A stretch of DNA of 64,000 bases, from positions 2,945,001-3,009,000 of the forward strand of contig NZ_JIAL01000001.1 in the NCBI RefSeq assembly GCF_000688455.1, read 5' to 3'. The number at the start of each line of letters is the position of its first letter. Position 1 is the first letter of the stretch. A program made the position numbers and the translations under genes. Below the pieces are notes generated by a model, which saw nothing but the letters and a program-made list of their open reading frames with translations, searched no databases and had not been told where the DNA came from. This stretch comes from Pseudacidobacterium ailaaui (GTDB taxonomy: Bacteria; Acidobacteriota; Terriglobia; Terriglobales; Acidobacteriaceae). Below, piece by piece: positions 8,247 through 50,227 of the stretch.

Positions 8247-8675
8247 ATGAACGGGCTTACTCGGGGCCAGCTTGCACAACGTGCTCAGGTACACATGGAG
8301 ACCGTGCGCTTTTATGAACAGGCAGGGTTGTTACCTAAAGCGCCGCGGACTGCGGCCGGGTATCGCAAGTTTCCGGAAGAGGCCGTGGACCGGCTGATGT
8401 TTGTAAAGAGGGCCCAGGGGCTGGGTTTCTCCTTGCGGGAGATACGCGAGCTGCTTCTGGTTCAGGACGGACACACGGACACATGTGCAGAGGTCAGAGA
8501 CCTGCTGAGAAAGAAATTGTCCCTGATACGCGACAAAAAAGCCGAGCTGGAAAAGCTGGAGGTCCATCTGCAATCAGCGTTGCGCAAGTGTAACCGGGTA
8601 CTAAAACAGCAGGGAGAACATGCAGAAGGGTGCCCTGTCCTTGAACAGATGACAGCGGAAGAAGGAGATGCCTGA
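8247..8675 (+). CDS. merR: MerR-family metal-responsive regulator
   Basis: The 142-residue protein has an N-terminal winged helix (TRGQLAQRAQVHMETVRFYE, then AGYRKF), a dimerisation coiled coil (about residues 80-120) and a metal-binding end. Cysteines at about 80, 115 and 129 match the three Hg(II)-binding Cys of MerR. The operator just upstream looks like those of Cd/Pb/Zn sensors, so the metal is not settled. MerT at the end of the operon favours mercury. The stop overlaps the next gene (TGATG). No ribosome site is visible, as expected for a leaderless start. Confidence 0.9.
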   Translation: MNGLTRGQLAQRAQVHMETVRFYEQAGLLPKAPRTAAGYRKFPEEAVDRLMFVKRAQGLGFSLREIRELLLVQDGHTDTCAEVRDLLRKKLSLIRDKKAELEKLEVHLQSALRKCNRVLKQQGEHAEGCPVLEQMTAEEGDA

Positions 8676-9034
8676 TGGCGGAAAAGAGCTGCCGGAGCGA
8701 TGACCTGGTCTGTGGACGGTCTGCCATTGTGCTGTGGTACTTGCCAGTAATTGCTCTGGTTGTCGGCGCCTATCAGCAGGAGTTTTTACCTTATTTCTGG
8801 GTCCCGGCTTTTCTGCTGATGGGGGGTGCATGTGTGGTCAATGCTGCGCGGTGCCGAAGGGTGCACTGCTACATGACCGGACCTGTGTTTCTGCTTTCTG
8901 CGCTGTATGTTGTGCTGGCGGGCCTTCACAAGGTACCCATGCAGCCAGGAAAATTTCTGATTTTTGTTTTCGCGACCACAGTTCTGGCCCACCTGCTGGA
9001 AATTCCGCTGGGCAGGTACTCAAACAAAAAATGA
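8675..9034 (+). CDS. Small membrane protein of the mer-like operon
   Basis: The 119-residue protein has about four hydrophobic segments. Its cysteines are at the N-terminus (KSC, LVC) and in a CRRVHCYMTGP motif between segments 2 and 3. An AAGGAG ribosome site lies in the end of merR, and the start overlaps the merR stop. Small membrane proteins with a C-x4-C-x2-TGP loop occur beside MerR regulators in other soil bacteria. The paired Cys suggest metal handling, but transport or binding is unproven and no established name applies. Confidence 0.7.
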   Translation: MAEKSCRSDDLVCGRSAIVLWYLPVIALVVGAYQQEFLPYFWVPAFLLMGGACVVNAARCRRVHCYMTGPVFLLSALYVVLAGLHKVPMQPGKFLIFVFATTVLAHLLEIPLGRYSNKK

Positions 9035-22385: not shown

Positions 22386-23546
22386 TTACTTAGATTTTGG
22401 CGGAAACGGTGCCTCTTGGGGAAATAGCTGCGAAGCCAACTTGTCAACTTGTCCTTTCTGTAGTGTTTTGGTTTTTGCATATAGTTTCTCCGCCTCCGGC
22501 CTATTCCCTGAAGCCTGATACGCGCGTCCCAGCAGAAAATAAGCCTCTGGCTGTGTAGGGTCCAGGTCCACGGCGCGCTTCAAGGCCTGAATTGCCTCTG
22601 GATAGCGGTGTTCTTGCGTTAGGATGGCCCCAATATCGAGATAAGCAATACGGATATTGTTCCGCAGATGCAACGCCTTTTGCAGCAGCTCCAGGGACCT
22701 CTTTAGATTGCCAGTCTTATATTCCACGTCACCCAGATACGCCAGTGCCTGGGCCTGATCGGGATAACGGGCCAGTTCCTCCTCAAATTCTTCTCTGGCC
22801 TTCTCAAACTGAAACATTTTCCAGTAAAGAAACCCTAGTCCGAAATGAACATCGGGTTGCTGCGGAGCGGCCTGAGCGGCCGCCTGAAATTCTGTAATGG
22901 CCTCCGGGGTACGGTCAAGGCCATCCAAAGCTTCTCCATACAGAACATGTACCGCTGCCGAATCCGGTTTTTGCTGAAGAATTTTCCGGAATTCCTCAAG
23001 CGCGCAGGAGTATTTTTTAGCGAAGAGGCAACTTTGAGCCAGCACCTGCCGCAGTTCCAGATTTTCTGGATCGGCTTTTACCGCGGCAGCCAATTGTTCG
23101 GTAGCTTTTGCAAATTGCTCAGAGCCATAATAGCTCATCCCCAGCAGTACGCGGATCTGCAGGCTATGTGGATCTGCCGCTTGCGCAGCACGCAACGGTG
23201 GTATAGCAGATTCAAAATGCCCCTGTTTGAATTCAGCAAGCCCAAGATTAAGTTGTAGAATACGCAGCGTTGGTTTGATTGCCAGGGCTCGATGATATGC
23301 AGAAACTGCTTCAGCATATTGGCCCTCCTCTGACAGTACAAGACCAAGACTGGCGTAGGCCTCAGCATCGTTCGGATTGGATCTTATGATTGCGCGCCAT
23401 ACGTCAGCGGATTCGGTGAGTTTTCCCTGAGCTTTCAGTTCCATGGCTCTCTTTGCGTCTGAGCTCACTATCTGAGCCCCCATCCAAAGAGCGAGAATGA
23501 ATGGTGTCAAGAAAATCAGTTTCTCACGATGCATGTAACCAATCAT
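22386..23546 (-). CDS. Secreted TPR-repeat protein
   Basis: The 386-residue protein has an N-terminal signal-anchor (LIFLTPFILALWMGAQ) and about nine tetratricopeptide repeats, seen as recurring A..LG......A...F..A....P modules. The ATG at 23546 directly abuts the T-run of the terminator behind the TonB receptor gene; MHREKL at 23534 is an alternative start. It probably gets its transcript by read-through from that gene. TPR partners of acidobacterial TonB receptors are common, but the role is unknown. Confidence 0.82.
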   Translation of the reverse strand: MIGYMHREKLIFLTPFILALWMGAQIVSSDAKRAMELKAQGKLTESADVWRAIIRSNPNDAEAYASLGLVLSEEGQYAEAVSAYHRALAIKPTLRILQLNLGLAEFKQGHFESAIPPLRAAQAADPHSLQIRVLLGMSYYGSEQFAKATEQLAAAVKADPENLELRQVLAQSCLFAKKYSCALEEFRKILQQKPDSAAVHVLYGEALDGLDRTPEAITEFQAAAQAAPQQPDVHFGLGFLYWKMFQFEKAREEFEEELARYPDQAQALAYLGDVEYKTGNLKRSLELLQKALHLRNNIRIAYLDIGAILTQEHRYPEAIQALKRAVDLDPTQPEAYFLLGRAYQASGNRPEAEKLYAKTKTLQKGQVDKLASQLFPQEAPFPPKSK

Positions 23547-27470: not shown

Positions 27471-28538
27471 ATGAAAATGAAATTTCTGCTTGTCTGCGTC
27501 ATGACCGCGGCCCAAGGGGCAAACCTTACGGCGCAGGTTGAAACAGAAGTGCCTCCTGTGATCCCCCATGCCAAACCCATTACCATGGAGCACATAAAAG
27601 TACATGGAACGTCACTGGAAGGTAACTTGGAGGGTGAAGCTGTGGACCGCGAAGTGTTGGTCTTTCTGCCCCCCAGTTACCAAAAAGATCGCCATCGGAG
27701 ATATCCGGTGGTCTATGCGCTGCATGGTTATTCCATAGGAGCTGAGCAGTGGACGCGAGAAATTCACGTGCCGCAAACAATCGAAGGGGCCTTTGCGCAG
27801 GGCGCACAAGAGATGATCATCGTGCTTCCTGATTCGAAAACAGTCTATGGTGGATCGATGTACTCCAGCTCCGTCACCACGGGAGACTTTGAGGACTTCA
27901 TCGCGCACGATCTGGTCTCCTACATAGACGCCCACTATCGCACGATTCCCAATCGCATGGCGCGTGGGTTGGTCGGCCACTCTATGGGTGGATATGGCGC
28001 AACCCGCATTGGCATGAAGCATCCCGATGTCTTTGGAAGTCTCTATATCATGAGTCCATGCTGCCTTTCTGCGCGGCTTGCTGGCCCTTCCAATCCTGAA
28101 TTTGAAAAGCAAGTGGAATCTGTAAAAACACCTGCCGATACGGCCAACCTTCCCTTCTTGGTGCGCGCGCAGTTTGCCACCGCGGCCGCATGGTCTCCTG
28201 ACCCGAAAAGACCTCCTCTGTATCTGGACCTGCCAGTGAAGGATGGTGTTGCTCAGCCTGATGTCCTGGCCAAGTGGGCCGCAAATGCGCCACTGGCCTT
28301 CGTGGACCAGTACATTGGCAATCTTCGCCGCTATCGCGCCATCGCTATGGACGTCGGTGACCAGGATGGCTTGCGCTTGGATGCAGGCAAGCTGCACGAA
28401 GTTCTTGATAACTATGGAATCGCAAACAGCTTTGAAATCTATCACGGCACTCATACCAGCGCTGTGGCAGACCGCTTTCAGAACCACGTGCTCCCGTTCT
28501 TCAGTCGGAACCTTTGCTTTGAGGAGAGGTGCCAATGA
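27471..28538 (+). CDS. Secreted CE1/esterase-D-type alpha/beta hydrolase
   Basis: The 355-residue protein has a signal peptide and the esterase D fold. The nucleophile is in GHSMGGYGATRIG, the oxyanion region is YALHGYSIG, the acid is the Asp of DVGDQDG and the His is in YHGTHTSAV. Such enzymes in acidobacterial loci remove feruloyl or acetyl groups from plant polymers. The ATG at 27471 has AAAGG at 9 nt, better than the ATG at 27462. A terminator follows at 28725. Part of this gene recurs, damaged, at 37072. Confidence 0.85.
   Translation: MKMKFLLVCVMTAAQGANLTAQVETEVPPVIPHAKPITMEHIKVHGTSLEGNLEGEAVDREVLVFLPPSYQKDRHRRYPVVYALHGYSIGAEQWTREIHVPQTIEGAFAQGAQEMIIVLPDSKTVYGGSMYSSSVTTGDFEDFIAHDLVSYIDAHYRTIPNRMARGLVGHSMGGYGATRIGMKHPDVFGSLYIMSPCCLSARLAGPSNPEFEKQVESVKTPADTANLPFLVRAQFATAAAWSPDPKRPPLYLDLPVKDGVAQPDVLAKWAANAPLAFVDQYIGNLRRYRAIAMDVGDQDGLRLDAGKLHEVLDNYGIANSFEIYHGTHTSAVADRFQNHVLPFFSRNLCFEERCQ
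28214..28320 (+). repeat. Segmental repeat A, left copy (inside esterase)
   Basis: This part of the esterase gene recurs at 37072-37177 with a few substitutions and a 1-nt deletion. It ends in GGCA, which is also the start of repeat B. Confidence 0.92.
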
Positions 28539-28724
28539 TTTTCTCCTCGATCACTGCCACAAAACACCCGTCATGATATTTTTCAGAATGCCTGCTGCTG
28601 TGGCATCACCGAACTATAGGCTTAAGTACTCGGTTAAATATGTAGGCCGGGGATTTCGTCGCGTTCTGGTTTTCGCCGTCCATGAGCGAAGTACAGTAGG
28701 AGTAGGGGCAAAGTCGGCAAAAGC

Positions 28725-28758
28725 ATTCGGCGCACATTGAGGCGCCGAATCACTTTTT
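28725..28758 (+). terminator. Bidirectional terminator after the esterase
   Basis: ATTCGGCGC (28725-28733) pairs with GCGCCGAAT (28742-28750). TTTTT follows on the plus strand and TTTT on the minus strand. It originally lay between the convergent esterase and GH9 genes. Confidence 0.85.
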
Positions 28759-28761
28759 CCG

Positions 28762-28968
28762 GGCACTGCTTCGCTTCTTTCGTGATCGCATCGGCAGCAT
28801 TGCCGGCAATAACCCAGCTTGCCGATTCGGCCACCACAGCTTCATCCTCGAACCAGAGAAATCCGAAGTCGTCAATGCACTCGGGAAAATCCGGCTTGAT
28901 GATGATGTATCCCGGAATCACGGCGCCCGGAATGTAGGAGTTATCGGCTCGGTTATTGCTGTAGGTCT
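28762..28968 (+). repeat. Segmental repeat B, left copy
   Basis: These 207 bp match 37174-37380 with one substitution seen. They encode, on the minus strand, the last ~67 residues of the GH9 cellulase. Confidence 0.95.
28766..28968 (-). pseudogene. Orphan C-terminal fragment of the GH9 cellulase
   Basis: The minus strand reads the GH9 end (YSNNRADNSYIPGAV, FGFLWFEDEAVVAESASW, ITKEAK) with no upstream catalytic domain. The stop codon TAG of the intact gene is CAG here, consistent with decay. The fragment is cut off on its 5' side at an IS3 remnant. Confidence 0.93.
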
Positions 28969-28970
28969 CG

Positions 28971-29135
28971 GTGGCAAGTCGCGAAGCCGGCATCGCTGAG
29001 CAAACCCACTGCCGCTGGTGCAAGGATTATGGCAGTCTGAAGGTGAATCAGGCCAAGCGCCTGAATGAGCTTGAGGCGGAGAACGCGAAGCTGAAGTGTT
29101 TGCTGGCGACTCTTAGCCTAGTAATCTCGTGTTGA
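28971..29135 (+). pseudogene. IS3-family OrfA transposase remnant
   Basis: The frame reads SREAGIAEQTHCRWCKDYG, then LKVNQAKRLNELEAENAKLK and a stop at 29133. It matches the helix-turn-helix and leucine zipper of OrfA from IS407-like IS3 elements. Both ends and all of OrfB are missing. It begins 2 bp after the end of repeat B. Confidence 0.85.
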
Positions 29136-29522
29136 AAAACTTCCCCTGGGGAAATGGGTGGTCTACTCCGTTTTTGCAAGCGCAGAGATGCTAGTGACAC
29201 ACAGCAGTTTGCGCAAATCTATCCAGCCACTTGCGAGTCAGCTGCTTTTGGCAATCAGCCTGGCGTGCTGCTTGTTCCGCATATTACAGGTGGCTTGCCC
29301 ACATCCAGCTTGTAATCTATGTTGTGTTGTCACCGTTTCTATGCGGTTAAAGCTACGGCGGACATCTGCTGCTCGCTGTACAGCTTCTTGTGCACGTTGA
29401 CTCCTGGTCATTGCTGCAGAGGGGGCTTAATTGTTAAAGTACACCAGTTCGATTGCGCTATCTGCAATTGTTATTGCTCAATAGTAAAATTGCGTTGTCT
29501 CACGCCAACCGCTGGAGTGCCC
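29136..29522. other. Gene-free 387 bp upstream of the carotenoid regulator
   Basis: No plausible ORF or RNA was seen. It probably contains the promoter of the gene at 29523. Base composition is AT-richer than the flanking chromosome. Confidence 0.45.
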
Positions 29523-30146
29523 TTGAGAAAAAGACGTACAGGTTCCGCTGGTACTGCTGATCCTACTGTCGTTGAGGAATCCATTCGGCCTTACGCGATC
29601 GCAGATAAACTGCGGACATTGCGGCTTCGCCGAAGTATGGGATTAAAGCAGCTAGCACAGCATACAGGCCTTTCACCTGCAATGCTTTCACGTCTGGAAA
29701 ATGGAAGGCTTATGCCAACTCTGCCAACACTTGTGCGAATCGCCCTCGTATTTAATGTGGGACTCGATTACTTTTTCACCGATCCTCGCAAACGGCATAT
29801 TGTTGCCATTACTCGTAGAAGCGAACGCAAACTCTTTCCCTCTGATCCGGAAGCACCGCTCGTTCCCTGGCATTTTGAAATATTGGATTTCCGCGCAAAC
29901 GAACGTAAGCTGAACTGTTATCTTGGGCATTTCCATTACCTCCCCGAAGATAAGGTCCCCTCGCACGCACACCCCGGGATTGAATTCCTCTATCTGATAA
30001 AAGGGCATCTGGAGATTGGCATAGGAGTAGACAAGTTTCGCCTAGGGGCAGGAGACGCTATCTACTTCGATGCGATACAAAGGCACTCTTACCGGAGCGT
30101 AAAAAAGTCTGCATGTACAGCACTCGTGGTCACATCTAGGACTTAA
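29523..30146 (+). CDS. XRE-family regulator with C-terminal cupin
   Basis: The 207-residue protein combines a helix-turn-helix (about 25-80: LRTLRLRRSMGLKQLAQHTG, LSRLENGRLMPTLPTLVRIA) with a cupin sensor domain (about 120-200: SHAHPGIEFLYLIKG, GAGDAIYFDA). No ATG is available. TTG at 29523, with GGAG 5 nt upstream, is the best start; GTG at 29517 is an alternative. It lies 147 bp before the carotenoid operon on the same strand and is its likely regulator. The cupin ligand is unknown. Confidence 0.82.
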   Translation: MRKRRTGSAGTADPTVVEESIRPYAIADKLRTLRLRRSMGLKQLAQHTGLSPAMLSRLENGRLMPTLPTLVRIALVFNVGLDYFFTDPRKRHIVAITRRSERKLFPSDPEAPLVPWHFEILDFRANERKLNCYLGHFHYLPEDKVPSHAHPGIEFLYLIKGHLEIGIGVDKFRLGAGDAIYFDAIQRHSYRSVKKSACTALVVTSRT

Positions 30147-30293
30147 GGAACACCCTATAGTCTGACAGCCATGGTCGGATCACTTTTCTTTCTGCGCAAA
30201 CAAAAGCGGTCTGCTTTGCATCCCAAGCAACAAATCCTACTTTTCACTCTTTGAATCAGATCAATTTCCAGTAGGTACGCCTAGCTTATAAGT

Positions 30294-31826
30294 ATGGCAT
30301 CTACTTCAAAGCGGCGGGTTGTTATTGTCGGAGGCGGCCCTGGCGGTCTTGCGGCAGCCATGCTCTTGGCGCAGCGTGGTTTTAACGTTCAGCTTTTTGA
30401 AAAACAGACTGTGATCGGTGGCCGCAGCGCTGAGGTTCGCCTGGGACCATATCGCTTCGACCTCGGCCCCACATTTCTTATGATGAAGTTTCTCCTGGAC
30501 GAGCTTTTTATAGAGGGCGGGCGCACATCACAGCAATATCTCGAGTTCAGGCGGCTGGATCCAATGTATGCGCTGAACTTTCCTGACAAAACACTTCTTG
30601 CTCGTTCTCACCCGGAAGCGATGAAGAAAGAGATTGAAAAGCATTTTCCGGGTGAAGGCCAACACTTTGACAACTTTTTGACGAAAGAGGGTCGACGCTT
30701 CGCGAAGTTATATCCTTGCCTTCAGAAGCCCTACGGTACATGGACTAGCCTTATCAGTCCCACTCTAATTGCTGCCACTCCATATATAGCTGCGGGCAGA
30801 TCTCTCCATGATGTATTGGCAAACTATTTCACTTCAGAGCAATTGCGCTTGGCATTTACTTTTCAGTCAAAGTATCTGGGCATGTCTCCCTGGGAATGTC
30901 CCGGATTATTCACGATGATTCCGTACACGGAGCACGCTCATGGTGTCTATCACGTCATGGGTGGTCTTTGCCGCATAGCAGATGCTTTCGCCCGAGTAAT
31001 TAGAGAAGAAGGCTCTGACATCTACACCGGGACACCTGTAAAGCGAATTCTGCTTGACGGACGGCGGGCCCGCGGCGTCGAACTGGAAGATGGCGAAAAA
31101 GTTGAAAGTGATTACGTTGTCATCAATGCTGATTTTGGTCATGCCATGAGCACACTTTTTGACGCATCACTGTTAGGCCGTTATAGCCCCCAAGCTCTGC
31201 GTCGCCGACGCTTTTCCTGCTCAACATTCATGATGTATCTGGGTCTGGATCGTTCTTATACAGCACCACATCACAGCATCATTTTTGCGAACAATTACAG
31301 ACAGAACTTGGAAGCGATCGCACGAGGAAGAGAAGACTTTGAAGATATGTCCGTATATGTTCGGAACTCGGTTGTAACTGATCCTTCCGTAGCACCACCT
31401 GGTCACAGTGCTCTATACATTCTGGCCCCGGTAGCGAATAACACCAGCAATATTGATTGGTCCCGCCACAAACAGAAGTGTCGTTCAAGCATACTTCGAA
31501 TCCTGCGTGAACGTACTTCATTCGGAGACATCGAGCGACACATTCAAACTGAACTGATCATTACACCGGAAGATTGGGAGAAGCAGTATTCAGTTTTTCT
31601 TGGCGCTACATTCAACATGGCGCACAGTTGGAGCCAGATGCTCTATTTTCGTCCTCACAATCGATTTCAATTATTCGAGAACTGTTATCTGGTCGGCGGC
31701 GGAACACATCCTGGTAGCGGGCTGCCAACTATCTTTGAATCTGCAAGGATTTCGTCCAATTTGATCTGTCGTGATAGTGGGGTCGCATACCCAAAGGCGA
31801 CACACTTTCAAATGGCGCTTGTATGA
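30294..31826 (+). CDS. crtN: Carotenoid desaturase (diapophytoene desaturase, CrtN-like)
   Basis: The 510-residue FAD enzyme opens with the dinucleotide fold VVIVGGGPGGLAAAMLLAQ, continues with GGRSAEV...FDLGPTF, and ends with the flavin motif LVGGGTHPGSGLPTIFESA. These are hallmarks of the CrtI/CrtN phytoene desaturase family. The neighbours (AldH, CrtP, CrtQ, CrtO) argue for the C30 enzyme CrtN, acting on diapophytoene or squalene. It is the first gene of the operon, and its stop overlaps the next start (ATGA). No CrtM synthase is present. Confidence 0.87.
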   Translation: MASTSKRRVVIVGGGPGGLAAAMLLAQRGFNVQLFEKQTVIGGRSAEVRLGPYRFDLGPTFLMMKFLLDELFIEGGRTSQQYLEFRRLDPMYALNFPDKTLLARSHPEAMKKEIEKHFPGEGQHFDNFLTKEGRRFAKLYPCLQKPYGTWTSLISPTLIAATPYIAAGRSLHDVLANYFTSEQLRLAFTFQSKYLGMSPWECPGLFTMIPYTEHAHGVYHVMGGLCRIADAFARVIREEGSDIYTGTPVKRILLDGRRARGVELEDGEKVESDYVVINADFGHAMSTLFDASLLGRYSPQALRRRRFSCSTFMMYLGLDRSYTAPHHSIIFANNYRQNLEAIARGREDFEDMSVYVRNSVVTDPSVAPPGHSALYILAPVANNTSNIDWSRHKQKCRSSILRILRERTSFGDIERHIQTELIITPEDWEKQYSVFLGATFNMAHSWSQMLYFRPHNRFQLFENCYLVGGGTHPGSGLPTIFESARISSNLICRDSGVAYPKATHFQMALV

Positions 31827-33691
31827 AGACAACAACCGCACACACCATGACTATTGAGGCTCGCGCCAATCAGCCTGAATGGGCCGGATTACCGGTTCCA
31901 GTGCGCTGTAGTTATCTCACGAAGCTTCGGCATATTCTCGCAAAAGAATGCGACGTGATTTCTCATCTCATTGCTGAAGAATGTAACAAGCATCCCCTGG
32001 ATGCACTTGCCGGAGATATATTTGTCACCCTTGAGTATTTGCGCTTTGTGGAACGCAACGCACCCCGAATTCTAAGACCACGTGCTCTATCAAAGCCACG
32101 GTTCTTTTTCTCCGGTACGCAGTTTGAACTACGTTATGAGCCTTATGGGGTCGTACTAATTTTTGCGCCATCCAACTATCCTCTCCAGCTTTCGCTCGTA
32201 CCAGCTGTCACTGCTCTGGCGACAGGAAACGCGGTGATTTTAAAGCTGTCTGACCGGACTCCGCGGACATCAGCCTTGCTTTCACAGCTTTTTGTTAAGG
32301 TTGGACTGCCATCGGGACTTGTTCAGATATGTAGCGTAAAGCCAGAAGAAGCCTCCGCTTTCGTGGAGGGAAAACCCGATTTTATCTTCTTTACTGGAAG
32401 CAGCTGCAACGGCCGAACGGTGGCCCAACAAGCAGCCAAGCACTTAATTCCTGGGGTATTCGAATTAGGAGGAAAAGACGCAAGCATTGTTTTCGCTGAC
32501 TGTGACATTCAGCGTGCAATAGAGGGCATAACATATGGGGCATTCACGAATACCGGCAGGCTTTGTGTAGCTGTAAAGCGGGTTTATGTGGAGGCTTCAA
32601 TCTACGCGGATTTCCTTATCAGGATCCGAGACCGGATCAAAGATTTGCGTATTGGCTGTACTGGGAACGAGTGTGATTTTCTACCCATGCCTGAGATTGA
32701 CAGAAAGCACCTTCGATTACAGGTCGAGGATGCGCTGAGTCGCGGTGCTCAACTTATTTGGCCGCAGGATCTCGTTGAGGCACTTGATCAACCAGTCGTC
32801 CTTGCAAATGTTTCTTCTGCATCGACCTTGCTTACCGAAGAGTCTTTTGGCCCTGTGCTGTGCGTTGGCTCCTTTACGAGTGAAGATGAGGCCATACAGC
32901 TAGCCAATTCTAATCCGTTTGCTTTAAGCAGCAGTATCTGGACCAAAGATCGCGCTCGGGCTGATAGAGTCGCTACTCAAATGAGTGCAGGAAGCTGCAT
33001 GATCAATGATGTTGTGCGGGCCATAGCGAATCCGTACATGCCTTTTGGTGGTAACGGCCTGAGCGGATACGGGCGATATCGCGGTCCTGAAGGGCTTCTT
33101 ACTTTTTCGCGTTGCAAAAGCATCATGAAAACATACACCCACCGCACACGTGAAAGGAATTGGTTTCCATACCGCGCACACACTATGCGTCAACTTTCAT
33201 TTCTCATGCGAATACGCCATGACATCGCTGGTTTTCTTCGTAACACTTCACAGATGTTTGTAGCGTGTCTGCTTATGATAGTTTTGCATCCATTCCTAAC
33301 GGCACAAGAGTTTTCAAAGACACAGTTGACCGTTATTGCTCAACTCACATCTGAAGCACAAGGGAATCTTGGATATCTCGTATTTGCGTCACACAACGGA
33401 TTTCCTGACGATCGGAACCGGGCAGTCCAGCACGGTTTCTATTCAATTCCGCGAGGAACTACACAAATGAATTTTACCCTGGCTCTGTCTCCAGGCACCT
33501 ACGCGATCGCCTTGTATGAAGATTTGAACGGGAATCATAGGCTCGATCGCAACTGGATTGGAATACCCAAAGAGCCAGTTGGTGTTTCGAAGAATCCTTC
33601 TACTCATTTTGGTCCTCCCAAATTTGACGATTGTTCATTTCTCGTCACGAAACAGCGAATGACCATAGTGATTCGATTGGTGCGTCCATGA
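31823..33691 (+). CDS. Aldehyde dehydrogenase (AldH/CrtNc-like) fused to DUF2141
   Basis: Residues about 1-440 are an aldehyde dehydrogenase, with GVVLIFAPSNYPLQLS, the general base in FELGGKDA and the catalytic Cys in TNTGRLCVAVKR. It resembles AldH of staphyloxanthin synthesis, which oxidises diaponeurosporenal to the acid. After a linker, a signal-like hydrophobic segment (MFVACLLMIVLHPFL, about 475-490) leads into a DUF2141 domain (about 495-620: YAIALYEDLNGNHRLDRNWI, GIPKEPVGVS). The frame is continuous. The two halves would face opposite sides of the membrane unless an internal start separates them. ATGA overlaps lie at both ends. Confidence 0.85.
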   Translation: MKTTTAHTMTIEARANQPEWAGLPVPVRCSYLTKLRHILAKECDVISHLIAEECNKHPLDALAGDIFVTLEYLRFVERNAPRILRPRALSKPRFFFSGTQFELRYEPYGVVLIFAPSNYPLQLSLVPAVTALATGNAVILKLSDRTPRTSALLSQLFVKVGLPSGLVQICSVKPEEASAFVEGKPDFIFFTGSSCNGRTVAQQAAKHLIPGVFELGGKDASIVFADCDIQRAIEGITYGAFTNTGRLCVAVKRVYVEASIYADFLIRIRDRIKDLRIGCTGNECDFLPMPEIDRKHLRLQVEDALSRGAQLIWPQDLVEALDQPVVLANVSSASTLLTEESFGPVLCVGSFTSEDEAIQLANSNPFALSSSIWTKDRARADRVATQMSAGSCMINDVVRAIANPYMPFGGNGLSGYGRYRGPEGLLTFSRCKSIMKTYTHRTRERNWFPYRAHTMRQLSFLMRIRHDIAGFLRNTSQMFVACLLMIVLHPFLTAQEFSKTQLTVIAQLTSEAQGNLGYLVFASHNGFPDDRNRAVQHGFYSIPRGTTQMNFTLALSPGTYAIALYEDLNGNHRLDRNWIGIPKEPVGVSKNPSTHFGPPKFDDCSFLVTKQRMTIVIRLVRP

Positions 33692-35187
33692 AAAAAGAGA
33701 TCATTGTCATCGGCGCTGGGCTGGGTGGAGTATCAGCAGCCATTATGCTTGCGCAGAGAGGTTATCAGGTTACTGTCTTTGAAAAAAACGGTCATGTTGG
33801 CGGAAAACTTAACCTGCTTAAAACCCAAGGATTTAGTTTTGATCTCGGCCCTTCCATTTTTACTTTGCCCCAGATGTTTCGGCCACTTTTTGATCATGGC
33901 AATCGACGTATGGAAGATTATCTAGACCTAAAACGCGTTGATCCTCAATGGCGCAATTTTTTTGAAGATGGCACTGTACTCAACTTGTGGGAAAAACCTG
34001 AAAGGATGCAATCTGAGCTAAGTCGCTTTGGACCACACACATGGGAGGAGTACTGTGAGTTTCTGAAATATTCTCGTCAGCAATATCGCATTCTTGAGCG
34101 AGGCTATTTTCGGAAGGGGTTGGATAATTTCTGGCAATTCCTTCAATTTTACGGTCTGCGGGATGCAAGAGATCTGGATTATTCCAGGACCATGTCGGGG
34201 AGTATTTATCAAAGACTGAGTAACGCATATCTGCGGGACATATTCGAATACTTTATTAAATATGTTGGTTCGAGTGCGCTGGATTCACCAGGGTTCATGA
34301 ATTTGATGCCCAACATACAACTTGAATTTGGACTGTGGTATATCTCGGGTGGTCTTTATCAGCTGGCGCATGCCCTGAACTGCCGGATGAAGGAATTGGG
34401 AGTCACTGTATGTCTGGAGCACACAGTGGAACAGATCCAGACGAAAAAGAGTGTCGCAGTTGGAATTCAATATCGCGATCCATCTGGTGACTTACATACG
34501 CTGACCGCAGATTATGTCATCTCCAATATGGAAGTCATACCTGCAATGAGGCGACTTCTTAAAGTTCCATCTCATGTGATGAAACGGCTACAGCGCTTTG
34601 AACCTGCCTGTTCTGGAATCGTACTGCATCTTGGACTTGATCGCATTTACCCACAATTGGCGCACCATAATTTTTTCTTCTCTCGGGATCAACATGCACA
34701 TTTTCATCGTGTATTCAGGAAAAAACAGTTACCGGATGACCCAACAATTTATCTTGTGGCCCCTACCCGCACAGATCCATCACAGGCGCCGGCAGGATGT
34801 GACAATTTGAAAATTCTGCCACATATTCCTCATCTTGATGAGCGCCGGCCATATTCGAGTTCAGATTATGCAGCGCTCAAAAACATATGCCTGGACAAGC
34901 TCGAACGTATGGGGTTGAAGGATTTACGCAAACACATCATCGTAGAAGACTTCTGGACTCCGTTGGATATCGAGCGTCGCTACTTATCGAATTGCGGATC
35001 CATATATGGAGTTGTATGTGACCGACGAAAAAACTTCGCCTTTAAAGCCCCTCGCAAAAGTTCTAGATACAAAAATCTCTACTTTGTTGGTGGAAGCGTA
35101 AATCCGGGGGGTGGAATGCCCATGGTTGTTTTAAGTGGACAGCATGTAGCAGATGCAATCGCAAAAGAAGATGGGTTGGCGTCATGA
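33688..35187 (+). CDS. crtP: Diapolycopene/diaponeurosporene oxygenase (CrtP/CrtNb-like)
   Basis: This 499-residue FAD protein of the CrtN superfamily starts with IIVIGAGLGGVSAAIMLAQ. It carries CrtP-type signatures: HHNFFFSRD, LPDDPTIYLVAPTRTD, APAGCDNLKILPHIP and the end motif GGGMPMVVLSG. CrtP oxidises the terminal methyl of C30 carotenes to an aldehyde, which the upstream AldH then converts to an acid. The ATG at 33688 lies in an ATGA overlap, so the earlier in-frame ATG is rejected. Confidence 0.88.
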   Translation: MKKEIIVIGAGLGGVSAAIMLAQRGYQVTVFEKNGHVGGKLNLLKTQGFSFDLGPSIFTLPQMFRPLFDHGNRRMEDYLDLKRVDPQWRNFFEDGTVLNLWEKPERMQSELSRFGPHTWEEYCEFLKYSRQQYRILERGYFRKGLDNFWQFLQFYGLRDARDLDYSRTMSGSIYQRLSNAYLRDIFEYFIKYVGSSALDSPGFMNLMPNIQLEFGLWYISGGLYQLAHALNCRMKELGVTVCLEHTVEQIQTKKSVAVGIQYRDPSGDLHTLTADYVISNMEVIPAMRRLLKVPSHVMKRLQRFEPACSGIVLHLGLDRIYPQLAHHNFFFSRDQHAHFHRVFRKKQLPDDPTIYLVAPTRTDPSQAPAGCDNLKILPHIPHLDERRPYSSSDYAALKNICLDKLERMGLKDLRKHIIVEDFWTPLDIERRYLSNCGSIYGVVCDRRKNFAFKAPRKSSRYKNLYFVGGSVNPGGGMPMVVLSGQHVADAIAKEDGLAS

Positions 35188-36254
35188 TCTGGACGGCAAT
35201 TAGCGCAGCAGGCATTCTTGCCGGAGCCCTGCTGCTTCGTCATGTCCCAAAATGCGGCCCTGTCGCTCACTGTGATTTTCCAGAATTTTCCATCATTATT
35301 CCAGCACGCAATGAAGCCACAAATCTGCCAATCCTGCTGGGTTCCATTGCCCAATCAAGACTGCAGCCTGTGGAGACTCTCGTAATTGATGATGCTTCAA
35401 CAGACAATACTGCCGCCATCGCAAAAAGCTTTGGGGCGCGAGTCCTACCTTCCAACGCTCTGCCGCATGGGTGGACGGGCAAGACATGGGCCTGTTACCA
35501 AGGTGCAAAACAATCGAAAACTGATCTGCTCTTGTTTCTTGATGCCGATGTCTCATTTCTTCCCGGTGGTCTTGAACGAGTCATTACAACATGGAGTTTG
35601 CAGTTTAATCCAAAGACAGTCCTTTCAATCCTGCCTTACCACAATGTGTCGGCTGTTTACGAGCAATTATCGATCATTTTCAATCTACTCATGGCGGCGG
35701 GAGCCGGAAGTTTCGGAGTATTTTCTTCTCCGAGACTATTTGGCCAATCCCTTCTGATTCCAAAACAACTGTACTTTGAGGTTGGCGGGCATCAATCTGT
35801 CAAAGGTTTTGTTCTTGAAAATCTTCGGCTTGCCCATTTGCTTCACCGCAGGCAGGCAAACATTGTGCCTCTTGTCGGTCAAGGAACGATTCAAATGAGG
35901 ATGTTTTCTAAAGGTTTTCAACAGATGACAAGAAGTTGGTCGAAAGCTTTTCTTCAAGGGGCCAAAGATTCAAGCAAGCTAGTTGTTTTTTTGTCGGTCT
36001 ATTGGATTTCAGCATTATGGTTCTGCCCGCTTCTTGTGATAGGCCACTCAAGCCAAGAGCTCATGTCACTGGTTGTTGTTTACTTGGTTTTGGCATTGCA
36101 ACTATACCTGGTTGCCCGGCAACTGGGTAAATATCATTTGTTGACTTGTCTTCTCTATCCCATACCTCTGGCTTATTACTGCATCGTGTTCGGGATGTCC
36201 ATGATTAATCAGGCAACTGGTCGAAAAACACTTTGGAAAGGGCGTCAAGTATGA
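35184..36254 (+). CDS. crtQ: GT2 glycosyltransferase (CrtQ-like)
   Basis: The 356-residue protein has a GT-A domain with FSIIIPARNEATNLP, VIDDASTDNT and the DxD-type LFLDADVSFLPGG. HGWTGKTWACYQGA is like the segment of CrtQ that handles the carotenoid acid. About four C-terminal membrane segments follow. CrtQ esterifies glucose to 4,4'-diaponeurosporenoate. It is coupled by ATGA overlaps on both sides. Confidence 0.87.
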   Translation: MIWTAISAAGILAGALLLRHVPKCGPVAHCDFPEFSIIIPARNEATNLPILLGSIAQSRLQPVETLVIDDASTDNTAAIAKSFGARVLPSNALPHGWTGKTWACYQGAKQSKTDLLLFLDADVSFLPGGLERVITTWSLQFNPKTVLSILPYHNVSAVYEQLSIIFNLLMAAGAGSFGVFSSPRLFGQSLLIPKQLYFEVGGHQSVKGFVLENLRLAHLLHRRQANIVPLVGQGTIQMRMFSKGFQQMTRSWSKAFLQGAKDSSKLVVFLSVYWISALWFCPLLVIGHSSQELMSLVVVYLVLALQLYLVARQLGKYHLLTCLLYPIPLAYYCIVFGMSMINQATGRKTLWKGRQV

Positions 36255-36751
36255 AGCTGATTGGCTATACCGCAAACATTCTAGGGTGGCCAATACTCCA
36301 GTTAACCATCGGATTCGCAGTGACACATTTCCCAGACCGGTTATTTGCTCGGGATTGTTGGCTCACTGCTAGTCGCGCCTGGGAAGACAACGGTGAATTC
36401 TACGCAGGCCGCTTAGCAATCCGTCGGTGGAAACATCTACTTCCTGACGGGTCTTCATGGTTTGGGGGATTTCCAAAGCGAAAGCTTATCTCGCATCATA
36501 CGGGATATTTAGCCAGATTTGTGACTGAAACCCGGCGCTCAGAGATCGCACACTGGTGTATGTTATGTTGTTTCCCGCTCTTCTTTCCCTGGAATCCCAC
36601 TTGGGCATGCCTCGTGATGGGGACCTACGGCCTTGCCGCTAATCTTCCTTGCATTATCGTACAGCGGTATAACCGGTTAGTTTTATTACGCATTCTTACC
36701 ATGCGCTTTGAGAAGAAGAAAATTGCACGACATTGCGGAGTACATAGATGA
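36251..36751 (+). CDS. crtO: Glycosyl-carotenoate acyltransferase (CrtO-like)
   Basis: The 166-residue membrane protein matches staphyloxanthin CrtO in length and landmarks: AIRRWKHLLPDGSSWFGGFPKRKL, a middle ETRRSEIAHW, and the end NLPCIIVQRYNRLVLLRI. CrtO attaches a fatty acyl chain to the glucose of the glycosyl carotenoid, the last step of staphyloxanthin formation. It is unrelated to the beta-carotene ketolase also called CrtO. The start at 36251 overlaps the crtQ stop (ATGA). Confidence 0.88.
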   Translation: MKLIGYTANILGWPILQLTIGFAVTHFPDRLFARDCWLTASRAWEDNGEFYAGRLAIRRWKHLLPDGSSWFGGFPKRKLISHHTGYLARFVTETRRSEIAHWCMLCCFPLFFPWNPTWACLVMGTYGLAANLPCIIVQRYNRLVLLRILTMRFEKKKIARHCGVHR

Positions 36752-37047
36752 AGGTATCGAGTCAAAAACGACGTTACCTTATCCATATAATGAGTACCTA
36801 TGATGAGCGAACCGGCACCCGCAGCTACATTGTACGGACGCGACGTTGGTCAACGCGACCAACTCAGATAGTCAGAGCTGCGGAACGACAGTTTGCAGAC
36901 GAATGTGAGCTTATCAAAGTCCTGAATCCCCTTCTGCCGCAGGGATCTGATGTACGAGATGTTTTGAACGATGTGGAAGGACCCGAAGGATTTATTTATC
37001 TTCTTCATCTAAACCATACCCAGGCAGCGAGTCTTGGATGCATTTGA
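36748..37047 (+). CDS. Small unknown protein ending the carotenoid operon
   Basis: The 99-residue soluble protein starts in an ATGA overlap with crtO. Its first third is basic (QKRRYLIHIM, RTRRWSTRPTQIVRAAERQF) and the rest acidic and hydrophobic. It has no membrane segment or recognised domain. The strict coupling suggests that it is expressed with the pathway. The operon ends 24 bp before the duplicated esterase fragment, so it may have lost a native 3' end. Confidence 0.55.
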   Translation: MKVSSQKRRYLIHIMSTYDERTGTRSYIVRTRRWSTRPTQIVRAAERQFADECELIKVLNPLLPQGSDVRDVLNDVEGPEGFIYLLHLNHTQAASLGCI

Positions 37048-37071
37048 AAGAATATAGAACCCGTCTGAACG

Positions 37072-37177
37072 TCCTCTGTATCTGGACCTGCCAGTGAAAG
37101 ATGGTATTGCTCAGCCTGATGTCCTGGCCAAGTGGGCCGCAATGCGCCACTGGCCTTTGTGGACCAGTACATTGGCA
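37072..37177 (+). repeat. Segmental repeat A, right copy (esterase fragment)
   Basis: This is a decayed copy of 28214-28320 with a 1-nt deletion (GCAATGCG for GCAAATGCG) that breaks the esterase frame. Its last four bases, GGCA, are also the first four of repeat B. Confidence 0.92.
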
Positions 37178-37380
37178 CTACTTCGCTTCTTTCGTGATCG
37201 CATCGGCAGCATTGCCGGCAATAACCCAGCTTGCCGATTCGGCCACCACAGCTTCATCCTCGAACCAGAGAAATCCGAAGTCGTCAATGCACTCGGGAAA
37301 ATCCGGCTTGATGATGATGTATCCCGGAATCACGGCGCCCGGAATGTAGGAGTTATCGGCTCGGTTATTGCTGTAGGTCT
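37174..37380 (+). repeat. Segmental repeat B, right copy (end of intact GH9)
   Basis: It matches 28762-28968 over 207 bp and forms the true 3' end of the GH9 gene. The single difference seen makes the TAG stop (CAG in the left copy). Confidence 0.95.
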
Positions 37381-47553: not shown

Positions 47554-47684
47554 AAAAGCAACCTTTCTAGAACATAAAAAATTCTGATGCCGCGCGGGGA
47601 TGCGGCGCAATCTCTCATTGTCGCATGAAGGATTTCTGTCAATTTGCAATACGCATTCGACACGAGCTATGGTAGCGTGGCTCT

Positions 47685-48095
47685 ATGGCCGTCAATACCC
47701 GATTCGCAACCGGAGTACACGCATTGCTTCTGCTCGCTGCCGAACCGGATGTACTACAAACTTCAGAAGACGTAGCGCGCAAGCTCCATACCAATCCCGT
47801 CGTTGTCCGCCGCGTATTTCTGCAATTGCAGGAGGCTGGTCTGGTAAAGAGCGTCAAAGGGCCCAACGGCGGCACCCGTCTTGCGCGGTCAGCCAAGGAC
47901 ATCACACTGGCCCATGCCTGGCGCGCCCTCGATGGCGGCGAGCTTTTCCATGTTCCGCCAGACGGGAAAATCAATTCTTTTCTCGAACAGGAATTCAAGA
48001 GCGTCCGCAAGGCACTGGAAAAAGAGCTGGCCAAGACCACCCTGAGCCAGATTGCGAAAAAGGCAGGGAAGGGCGGGAAGAAAGAAAAACGCTGA
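47685..48095 (+). CDS. Rrf2-family transcriptional regulator, Cys-less
   Basis: The 136-residue protein has the Rrf2 winged helix (about 5-75: RFATGVHALLLLA, SEDVARKLHTNPVVVRRVFLQL, VKGPNGGTRLA) and a basic Lys-rich end. The three Cys that hold an Fe-S cluster in IscR/NsrR are absent, so it probably does not sense iron-sulfur status. A larger frame covering this region is a shadow of the next gene. Confidence 0.9.
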   Translation: MAVNTRFATGVHALLLLAAEPDVLQTSEDVARKLHTNPVVVRRVFLQLQEAGLVKSVKGPNGGTRLARSAKDITLAHAWRALDGGELFHVPPDGKINSFLEQEFKSVRKALEKELAKTTLSQIAKKAGKGGKKEKR

Positions 48096-48193
48096 CCGGG
48101 CTTTGCAGTCATAGACCAGAAACACATCTCCGTCGTAGTCTGAATAGCATTGTCAGATTTCAGACGGAGTACACGGTTGCTGGACGCCCATTC

Positions 48194-50227
48194 ATGGCCC
48201 TGCTCACATTTCTCTATGCCGTTGCGGTTTTCCTGAGCGCATTTCTGCTTTTTGTGGTGCAGCCCATGGCGGCCAGGCAGCTTCTTCCGGTGCTGGGTGG
48301 ATCGGCGGCGGTCTGGACAACCTGTCTGGTGTTTTTTCAAACCGTCCTTCTGCTTGGCTACCTTTATGCGGACCAGGTGGCCACGCGGCTCGCGCCCAAA
48401 AGACAGGCAATGGTGCATGTGGTTGTCTTGGCGTCTGCACTGGCAGGTCTGGGAATCCGAATCCATCCCAGCCCGTGGGCGGCCACATGGCACCCGTTTC
48501 TTACGATCTTTGTTCTGCTGGCACTCATCGTGGGAGTGCCCTATTTTGCCCTCTCGGCCACAACTCCGCTGCTTCAGGCATGGCATGTGCTCAGTTTCCG
48601 CAGTGAGATGCCGTACCGGATGTTTGCTTATTCCAATGCGGGAGCATTGCTGGCACTCGTGCTCTACCCTGTGCTGATCGAGCCGTACCTGAGTCTTCAT
48701 CTTCAGACCCGCTGCTGGTCTGCGGGTTTCTTCCTGTTCGCCGTACTGTGTGGCGGTATTGCCTGGAGTGTGCGTCATACCTTGCCGGTCCGTGCAACCG
48801 GGCCGATGGACAAAGAATGCATCCCTCTGCGACGGAAGCTACTGTGGGTCTCTCTGCCGTGCTGTTCTTCGTTGTTGCTATGCGCCTTCACCAGCCAGTT
48901 GAGTCAGAACATTGCTGCCATCCCGCTGCTTTGGATCCCGCCGCTGTCGATGTATCTGCTGACTTTCATTCTGGCCTTCCACTCACCACGCGCCTACCCG
49001 CGGTGGTTGATGCTGCGACTGACGGCTTGTACGCTTGGGGTCCTGGGATATGTGGCCTACGGAACAAAGACGACATGGCCAGTCCAGGTACTGGTTCCGC
49101 TCTATTGCATTTCTTTGTTTGTCATCTGCTTTTTCCTACATGGGGAGCTGTACAGGATGCGGCCGACGGCCGAGACGGCCACCCGGTTTTATCTGGCCCT
49201 CTCTCTGGGGTCTGCCATCGGGGCCATGTTTGCCGGAGTGGCCGCACCTGTTTTCTTCCGCGCCAACTATGAGCTGGTGGTTGGGCTGGCGCTGACCTCC
49301 GCTCTTGCCCTGGTGGTTACCTGGAATTTTGGCCTGGGTGCGCGCCTTTTCTGGACAGCAGCGGTGCTGGCCCTGGTATGGGTGGGTGCAGTGCAGGCGC
49401 GTGTGTGGCAGCAGGACACCATTGCGCAACTGCGCAGCTTTTATGGAATTCTTCGTGTGACCCAGACCCACTGGCCGCCCCGGGCCGAGATCACGCGAAC
49501 TTTGTATCATGGGACCATCCAGCATGGGACCCAGATGTTTGGCAATGGTCTGCGTATGCAGCCCGCCTCTTATTACGCCCCTGACTCAGGGGTCGGGCTG
49601 GCGTTGCGTTTCTGCTGCTCAGGACGGCCGAAGCGGGTGGGCGTAGTTGGCCTGGGAACGGGTACGCTTGCGGTCTATGGCCAGCCTGAGGACTCATTCC
49701 GTTTTTATGAAATTGACCCACTGGTAGAGCGGCTGGCGCGCGAGCTGTTCACGTATCTGCGCGAGACCCCGGCCCGGGTCGATGTTGTTCCTGGAGATGC
49801 GCGGTACTCTCTGAACGTGGACCGCGGGGCCCCGTTTGATGTTCTGGTGCTCGACGCCTTCTCCGGGGACGCGGTGCCGGTGCATCTTCTCACCACGCAA
49901 GCGCTATCCCTGTATCAAAAGCATTTGACGCCGGATGGCATTCTGGCCTTCCACATATCGAGCCAGTATCTGAATCTGGAGCCAGTGCTGGCGCGCGAGG
50001 CGCAGCAGGCAAGGCTGCACGCGGTCACCGTCTTTTCCTCAGCAGAAGAATCTTCAGGAATCTTTGCTGCGGAATGGGTCTTGCTCACGCGCAATGAGCG
50101 TTTTCTGGCCCAGCCCGAGGTCGCGCGCGCCTCTCGCCCTGCACAGATACAAAAGAACGTAAGACTCTGGACGGACGATTATGCCAGCGTGTTGCCGATT
50201 CTGAAATGGGGACCGCACACCCGCTGA
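48194..50227 (+). CDS. Membrane protein with spermidine-synthase-like C-terminal domain
   Basis: The 677-residue protein has about ten membrane segments (residues 1-410), then a methyltransferase-type spermidine synthase domain (about 420-670) with VGVVGLGTGTLAVYG, YEIDPLVERLA and VLDAFSGDAVPVHLLT. Such fusions are common in soil bacteria and are annotated as fused MFS/spermidine synthase. Whether they make polyamines is unproven. The ATG at 48194 fits the first membrane helix; 600 bp of open frame upstream overlaps the Rrf2 gene and is not part of it. Confidence 0.87.
   Translation: MALLTFLYAVAVFLSAFLLFVVQPMAARQLLPVLGGSAAVWTTCLVFFQTVLLLGYLYADQVATRLAPKRQAMVHVVVLASALAGLGIRIHPSPWAATWHPFLTIFVLLALIVGVPYFALSATTPLLQAWHVLSFRSEMPYRMFAYSNAGALLALVLYPVLIEPYLSLHLQTRCWSAGFFLFAVLCGGIAWSVRHTLPVRATGPMDKECIPLRRKLLWVSLPCCSSLLLCAFTSQLSQNIAAIPLLWIPPLSMYLLTFILAFHSPRAYPRWLMLRLTACTLGVLGYVAYGTKTTWPVQVLVPLYCISLFVICFFLHGELYRMRPTAETATRFYLALSLGSAIGAMFAGVAAPVFFRANYELVVGLALTSALALVVTWNFGLGARLFWTAAVLALVWVGAVQARVWQQDTIAQLRSFYGILRVTQTHWPPRAEITRTLYHGTIQHGTQMFGNGLRMQPASYYAPDSGVGLALRFCCSGRPKRVGVVGLGTGTLAVYGQPEDSFRFYEIDPLVERLARELFTYLRETPARVDVVPGDARYSLNVDRGAPFDVLVLDAFSGDAVPVHLLTTQALSLYQKHLTPDGILAFHISSQYLNLEPVLAREAQQARLHAVTVFSSAEESSGIFAAEWVLLTRNERFLAQPEVARASRPAQIQKNVRLWTDDYASVLPILKWGPHTR

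Follow-up and report, generated by a model that had tools for sequence, protein, structure and literature searches.

A probable C30 carotenoid operon with a conserved AldH::DUF2141 fusion in the acidobacterium Pseudacidobacterium ailaaui

Background

Staphyloxanthin is glycosyl acyl diaponeurosporenoate, and the staphylococcal pathway runs through dehydrosqualene (4,4'-diapophytoene), formed by the SQS_PSY-type synthase CrtM. Other C30 pathways start from squalene. Excerpts of the report on Methylobacterium extorquens AM1 describe glycosyl octadecenoyl diapolycopenedioic acid made from squalene, with a CrtO homologue not found and the aldehyde dehydrogenase (AldH) unidentified (PMC10448405). 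In Azospirillum brasilense Sp7, according to part of the published account, deletion of hpnCDE or of crtNPOQ abolished carotenoids, and the crtNPOQ deletion accumulated squalene (PMC13274349). Passages from further papers state that deletion of hpnD gave white planctomycetes (PMC11958385), that Methylomonas has C30 carotenoids with SQS and without hpnCDE (PMC10745290), and, in a survey of 2010, that Acidobacteria are carotenogenic, at a time when they were without sequenced genomes (PMC2889829). Here we describe six genes of Pseudacidobacterium ailaaui (family Acidobacteriaceae), located at 30294-37047 of a stretch of 64,000 nucleotides, called the window below (contig NZ_JIAL01000001.1, positions 2,945,001 to 3,009,000). 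With a probability of roughly 0.8, we read them as a horizontally moved operon that would make a glycosylated, fatty-acylated C30 carotenoic acid from squalene. A literature search on acidobacterial C30 carotenoids gave nothing on this operon among the matches listed.

The locus resembles each of the described systems in part. With the staphyloxanthin pathway, as found on the Staphylococcus equorum plasmid pC2014-2, it has in common the CrtP clade, a PF18927-type CrtO, a family 2 glycosyltransferase (GT2) and a predicted AldH step. In contrast to that pathway, CrtM was not found here, CrtN groups elsewhere, and a small gene (orf99) and an XRE-cupin regulator are extra. The plasmid order crtO-crtP-crtQ-crtM-crtN also differs from that of the window, and AldH is here fused to DUF2141, whereas no DUF2141 was seen in the operon examined from S. 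equorum. Squalene supply by hpnCDE is the likeness to both M. extorquens and A. brasilense, as far as the excerpts describe them; A. brasilense additionally shares the CrtN clade and a DUF2141 gene in the operon, and M. extorquens the tailoring with sugar and acyl groups (excerpts of PMC10448405). These two organisms use an enzyme of the lysophospholipid acyltransferase (LPLAT) type where the window has CrtO, and the CrtP of A. brasilense lies in another clade, whereas that of the window is staphylococcal-type.

Results

Gene content and junctions

The operon consists of six genes on the + strand:

30294-31826, + strand: crtN, CrtI-family desaturase; TIGR02734 432 bits; groups in trees with squalene-route CrtN
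31823-33691, + strand: aldH::DUF2141 fusion, 622 amino acids; from Pfam, hydropathy and alignment
33688-35187, + strand: crtP, CrtI-family terminal oxidase of staphylococcal type; TIGR02734 353 bits and trees
35184-36254, + strand: crtQ, family 2 glycosyltransferase; Glycos_transf_2, same place in 11 other operons
36251-36751, + strand: crtO, glycosyl-carotenoate acyltransferase family; PF18927 96.3 bits, cut-off 27.3
36748-37047, + strand: orf99, the sixth frame, a conserved small protein of 99 amino acids, without Pfam or NCBIfam match

A sequence-only reading of the window had proposed a CrtN-AldH-CrtP-CrtQ-CrtO set with five ATGA junctions, and profile searches agree with it on gene content: PF18927, Aldedh, Glycos_transf_2 and the two CrtI-family proteins all score over their cut-offs. 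The two desaturase-like proteins are the only ones of the genome that pass TIGR02734 (cut-off 238). Aldedh exceeds its Pfam cut-off and many NCBIfam AldH models score, each under its own cut-off. CrtQ reaches no NCBIfam cut-off, and its place adjoining crtO is conserved in the other 11 operons.

The open reading frames and junctions stand as proposed. ATGA overlaps of 4 nucleotides are found at 31823, 33688, 35184, 36251 and 36748, with the partner frames in register at all five. Overlaps of this kind are frequent in bacterial operons and are therefore not remarkable by themselves. The pattern recurs, however, in 12 homologous operons including the window (L018, L028-L031 and L109-L114, where L109 and L111 are near copies), in which an ATG, GTG or TTG start is positioned for a 4-nucleotide overlap at 54 of 57 junctions. 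The exceptions are crtO/orf99 in L018, aldH/crtP in L031 and crtN/aldH in L114.

Phylogeny of CrtN and CrtP

The main tree was a maximum likelihood tree of 74 rows, selected to keep it small. It was built without L039, L040, L043, L049-L052, L074-L080, L082, L084-L098, L100, L101, L107, L111, L117-L123, L125 and L127, and without rows under 100 bits or 400 amino acids. A second tree was made by a quick method without L073, L102, L103 and L108. As C40 references, the CrtI of Pantoea and Thermus were included in both trees and one CrtD in the main tree.

The 11 operon CrtNs form one clade (support 100/99), nested in a wider grouping (100/100) that takes in Azospirillum-type CrtN; that group holds the CrtN of A. 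brasilense Sp7, genetically verified for the squalene route. Next outside is the Pantoea/Thermus CrtI pair (94/77), and the S. equorum CrtN, a single row on a long branch, is placed farther out. The 11 operon CrtPs, in contrast, form one clade (100/99) with S. equorum CrtP and three sequences from metagenome-assembled genomes (MAGs), separate from Azospirillum-type CrtP; the window CrtP is 46.7% identical to that of S. equorum. The quick tree gives the same groupings, and in both trees CrtN and CrtP do not group with the small set of C40 references. The operon thus looks like a mosaic, its CrtN being of the squalene-route kind and its CrtP and CrtO of the staphylococcal type.

Two further observations concern the CrtN family. 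In L037:7054-10491, from a MAG labelled Deltaproteobacteria, an open frame of 1146 amino acids carries CrtN at residues 636-1131, which may thus be fused to about 600 additional residues. Among the matches listed, L041 and L047 are CrtN relatives (51-52%) on contigs labelled Woesearchaeota and Bathyarchaeota, by transfer or through misbinned contigs.

Precursor supply

The window genome has exactly two SQS_PSY genes, side by side and adjoining hpnE. They score as HpnC (363.8 bits, cut-off 250.45) and HpnD (247.1, cut-off 278.6), and HpnE reaches 477.9 (cut-off 283.05). Upstream lie hpnA, an hpnG match below cut-off and two alcohol dehydrogenase genes. The squalene-hopene cyclase is present in one copy elsewhere in the genome, which has two polyprenyl synthases. 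A CrtM was found neither in the operon nor in the genome, the SQS_PSY genes being the hpn pair only. Squalene is therefore the expected C30 unit, provided that neither product of the pair acts like CrtM. Exactly two adjacent SQS_PSY genes, whose synthase type was assigned in the window genome only, are found in 7 of 8 genomes with this operon; in the eighth, G003, which is 84% complete, none was found. Subdivision 1 Acidobacteria are reported to have hpnCDE as a rule, though not in every case (PMC5462960).

On this basis the chromosomal hpnCDE would supply squalene, also feeding hopanoids. CrtN would desaturate squalene, CrtP would convert a terminal methyl into the aldehyde function, and AldH would oxidise the aldehyde to the acid. 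CrtQ would add the sugar and CrtO would then add a fatty acyl chain.

Distribution

The order crtN, aldH (or its DUF2141 part), crtP, crtQ, crtO is constant across the 12 operons. Among the CrtN matches listed (at least 25 loci), identities of 67-74% occur on four acidobacterial contigs (KBS 146, BP5.bin56, bog_172 and ZG23-2), while Verrucomicrobia and others reach at most 55%; the operon is carried by these four and by seven other acidobacterial genomes. CrtP relatives of at least 67% identity were found in 7 of 396 genomes of the phylum, the window genome included, all in the same family. The distribution is patchy.

CrtO-family genes are present in 14 of the 396 genomes, and in 3 of 61 when the own genome and its relatives are considered. 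L019 (G018) has a CrtO-family gene at about 8475-8945, by eye in the list of open reading frames without crt neighbours. orf99 occurs in 5 of 396 genomes, all with this operon, and in 9 of the 12 operons; it was not detected in L031 and L114, and the L113 contig ends beside crtO. Neither Pfam nor NCBIfam gave a match to orf99 at E 0.001, a PDB sequence search gave nothing useful, and for a model built on 4 sequences (pLDDT 85) no PDB structure of similar fold came up at E<=0.001.

A second operon type, crtN-aldH-crtP-LPLAT-glycosyltransferase of the Azospirillum type (type B), was fetched from 14 loci in the phylum, 12 of them in the family of the window. It shares the order crtN-aldH-crtP. 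It differs in having Azospirillum-type CrtN and CrtP, in the LPLAT that replaces CrtO, and in DUF2141, seen in none of the 14 fetched stretches.

The AldH::DUF2141 fusion

The gene taken for a plain AldH in the sequence-only reading does have the Aldedh domain; the gene as a whole is a fusion. AldH covers residues 6-434, a hydrophobic segment residues 478-494 and DUF2141 (PF09912, 99.1 bits against a cut-off of 24.4) residues 511-615. This copy is the sole PF09912 match of the window genome. The fusion is found in 10 of 12 operons, or 9 of 11 without the window. ELGGK and G[RQ]xC, which we take to be the AldH motifs, are intact in all 9 fusions tested, and the window copy reads GRLC. The top hydropathy peak lies between the two domains in 8 of these 9 (L028 peaks elsewhere, and the peak of L031 is modest, 1.65). 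The segment at 478-494 is signal-anchor-like, as judged by hydropathy only. It would probably tether AldH to the inner membrane from behind the AldH domain and would place DUF2141 in the periplasm; there, binding the finished carotenoid lipid or passing it on is a possible role of the domain.

Two explanations of the fusion were weighed. In the first, the segment merely anchors AldH and DUF2141 is a passenger of the same operon, with no meaning for export. We regard this as a real possibility, at somewhat less than even odds. It agrees with G278, which keeps AldH without DUF2141 and has no PF09912 match in its genome, and with the type-B operons, where the domain was not seen. On the other hand, DUF2141 survives without AldH in G326, between crtN and crtP (L113:3087-3875) and preceded, by eye, by a hydrophobic stretch, and the window genome has no PF09912 match other than the fused copy. 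DUF2141 is moreover a separate gene in or beside the C30 operons of A. brasilense Sp7, Gluconobacter (where it adjoins aldH) and Palleronia, and in a Bdellovibrionales MAG it lies between crtP and aldH on the opposite strand. In the second explanation, DUF2141 would be a periplasmic carotenoid-handling domain, and in Acidobacteriaceae the transmembrane fusion would couple the last cytoplasmic oxidation to catching the acidic carotenoid lipid and handing it onward. We put this forward as speculative and rather unlikely.

The neighbourhood of DUF2141 was further compared on plasmids, using 60 of 240 records with CrtP matches. In alphaproteobacterial C30 plasmid loci, DUF2141 is within the operon in 3 of 7 (L067, L072 and L105; not L071, L104, L106 and L107), and in Microvirga a copy lies about 8 kb beyond crtP. 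Overall, of 37 plasmid records having the domain, at least 5 carry it a few kb or less away from one of the listed CrtP matches. Excerpts of two papers place DUF2141, of unknown function, next to crtG in Sphingomonadales and Qipengyuania, and these excerpts do not mention an AldH fusion (PMC5989583, PMC9241875); the domain is also named in PMC3597751.

A PDB sequence search with DUF2141 gave nothing useful. A model from 6 sequences (pLDDT 71, pTM 0.66) is all beta, and its best PDB row is a fimbrial tip protein (Foldseek E 1.3e-4; VIA Z 8.9, root-mean-square deviation 3.2, 115 aligned). Four dissimilar proteins score within 1 Z of that row, so no function follows.

Regulator and a conserved upstream element

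The XRE-cupin regulator that had been proposed ahead of the operon was recovered with both of its Pfam domains:

29319-30146, + strand: XRE-cupin regulator; Pfam HTH_3 and Cupin_2
29453-29467, + strand: TTGC-N7-GCAA, candidate regulator site upstream of a possible later XRE start
30216-30230, + strand: TTGC-N7-GCAA, candidate regulator site between XRE and crtN

A later start of the regulator, at about 29490-29523 instead of 29319, is possible, judged by eye from the portion common with L018 and the available start codons. An XRE gene precedes crtN in 9 of 11 other operons (10 of 12 with the window) and was not detected in L031 and L114 of the 12 mapped.

Exact inverted repeats (arms of at least 6 bases, spacers of at most 7) were not found in the XRE-crtN gap of the window; the interrupted element TTGC-N7-GCAA was recognised only by comparing operons. 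In that gap it is exact in 7 of 9 XRE-bearing operons tested, and each of the remaining two departs from it at one of the 8 bases. The pattern as such is not uncommon (the window holds 5 where 2.7 are expected, a count reached in 13 of 100 shuffles), and the evidence is therefore its conservation. When 150 bases of each gap were shuffled base by base, the observed score was reached in at most 0.3% for 6 of 9 operons, in 4.6% for L030, 5.7% for L112 and 44% for L110, whose site is at the edge of the 150 bases. In the operons without XRE, L114 has one exact element upstream of crtN, while L031, where the best match is 6 of 8, has no exact one. On the far side of XRE, outside the shuffled gaps, the stretch upstream of the gene scores 7 of 8 bases in eight relatives, six of them reading TTGAC-N6-GCAA, which could be a -35 box. 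We regard TTGC-N7-GCAA as a candidate regulator site and not a proven operator; through such sites the XRE-cupin protein would probably govern its own gene and the operon.

Flanking repeats and base composition

The operon is flanked by a direct repeat of 207 nucleotides:

28762-28968: 207-nucleotide direct repeat, left copy; stray 3' end of the neighbouring GH9 gene
37174-37380: 207-nucleotide direct repeat, right copy; 3' end of the intact GH9 gene
37069-37177, + strand: esterase gene fragment; copies 28211-28320 in two ungapped pieces, 96% and 97% identical

The two repeat copies are identical at 206 of 207 bases, and a third was not found in the genome. The sole mismatch affects the stop codon TAG with which the intact GH9 gene ends (37178-37180), and the stray left end (28634-29023) reads through at that place; the present GH9 end may thus stem from rearrangement. 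Of the 13 other window genes measured, 12 have a G+C at third codon positions (GC3) of 0.567-0.691; seven genes of the locus have 0.40-0.49. Overall G+C is 0.479 in the operon and 0.552 in the remainder of the window. In the 11 relatives, of the same gene order, operon and flanks by contrast differ by 0.001-0.041. Repeats and low G+C fit a recent arrival at this spot. An empty-site comparison using the GH9 gene gave no match in 1 same-genus or 21 other same-family genomes searched. Elsewhere in the window, 47600-50227 is a frame of 875 amino acids with no Pfam match at 1e-5.

The recent-looking duplication and foreign base composition could also mean that, once inserted, the operon fell silent or began to decay. 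We find this improbable, as every frame is intact, the overlaps are retained, and so are the ELGGK and GRLC motifs of AldH and the TTGC-N7-GCAA element.

Discussion

The sequence-only reading had called the set staphyloxanthin-like. This holds for the CrtP clade and the CrtO family. It is not supported for the precursor step, as CrtM was not found in operon or genome, nor for CrtN, which groups with the Azospirillum type and not with the one long-branch staphylococcal row, for the GT2, which stays under the NCBIfam cut-offs, or for AldH, which carries DUF2141. The staphylococcal pathway as such was rejected because the genome has no crtM candidate. A transplanted staphylococcal set working on dehydrosqualene, made by a CrtM-like SQS_PSY protein, would gain from the CrtP clade, the CrtO match and the HpnD candidate that falls under its cut-off. 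It is nevertheless highly improbable: a third SQS_PSY gene was not found and the pair belongs to an hpnC-hpnD-hpnE cluster, CrtN groups with the Azospirillum type, and gene order and AldH fusion differ from the S. equorum operon. A C40 pathway, with both desaturases acting on phytoene-derived carotenoids, may draw on the breadth of the CrtI family, on the CrtI clade adjoining CrtN and on the solo genes of unknown role that the CrtN clade holds in Verrucomicrobia and other phyla, but is barely credible, since a phytoene synthase candidate other than the hpnC/hpnD pair was not found among genes that include just two polyprenyl synthases, CrtO and CrtP are C30-type, and CrtN shares its clade with a verified squalene-route enzyme.

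Several points weigh against a squalene-based, horizontally moved operon as we read it. Pathway and pigment are predicted here from the genes. HpnD is assigned by best match and position, yet lies under its curated cut-off. The squalene-route CrtN clade is nearer to C40 CrtI than to staphylococcal CrtN, with weak support; for this reason, and because the staphylococcal CrtN is a single long-branch row, CrtN phylogeny alone is no proof of C30. The profiles closest to the CrtQ GT2 are HpnB and, after it, TIGR04283 and CruG, with scores far below the cut-off in every case. One window gene apart from the operon, 22386-23546, has a GC3 of 0.481, as low as the operon itself. As to DUF2141, it adjoins a metallophosphoesterase in 13 Roseomonas plasmid records, so that the family is not carotenoid-specific, and the published crtNPOQ deletion in A. 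brasilense may or may not have taken in its DUF2141 gene (PMC13274349).

The squalene-based operon points to staphyloxanthin-like tailoring genes working on squalene in a Gram-negative phylum, and two distinct C30 operon types are present within one bacterial family. If the reading is true, carotenoids and hopanoids would be rivals for a shared pool of squalene. Through its conserved fusion to AldH, DUF2141 can be assigned a specific place, open to experiment, in the chemistry or transport of carotenoids. Should the periplasmic role be true, a dedicated carotenoid export step would be common to some Gram-negative C30 producers and some C40 producers, a step unneeded by staphylococci, which are without an outer membrane.

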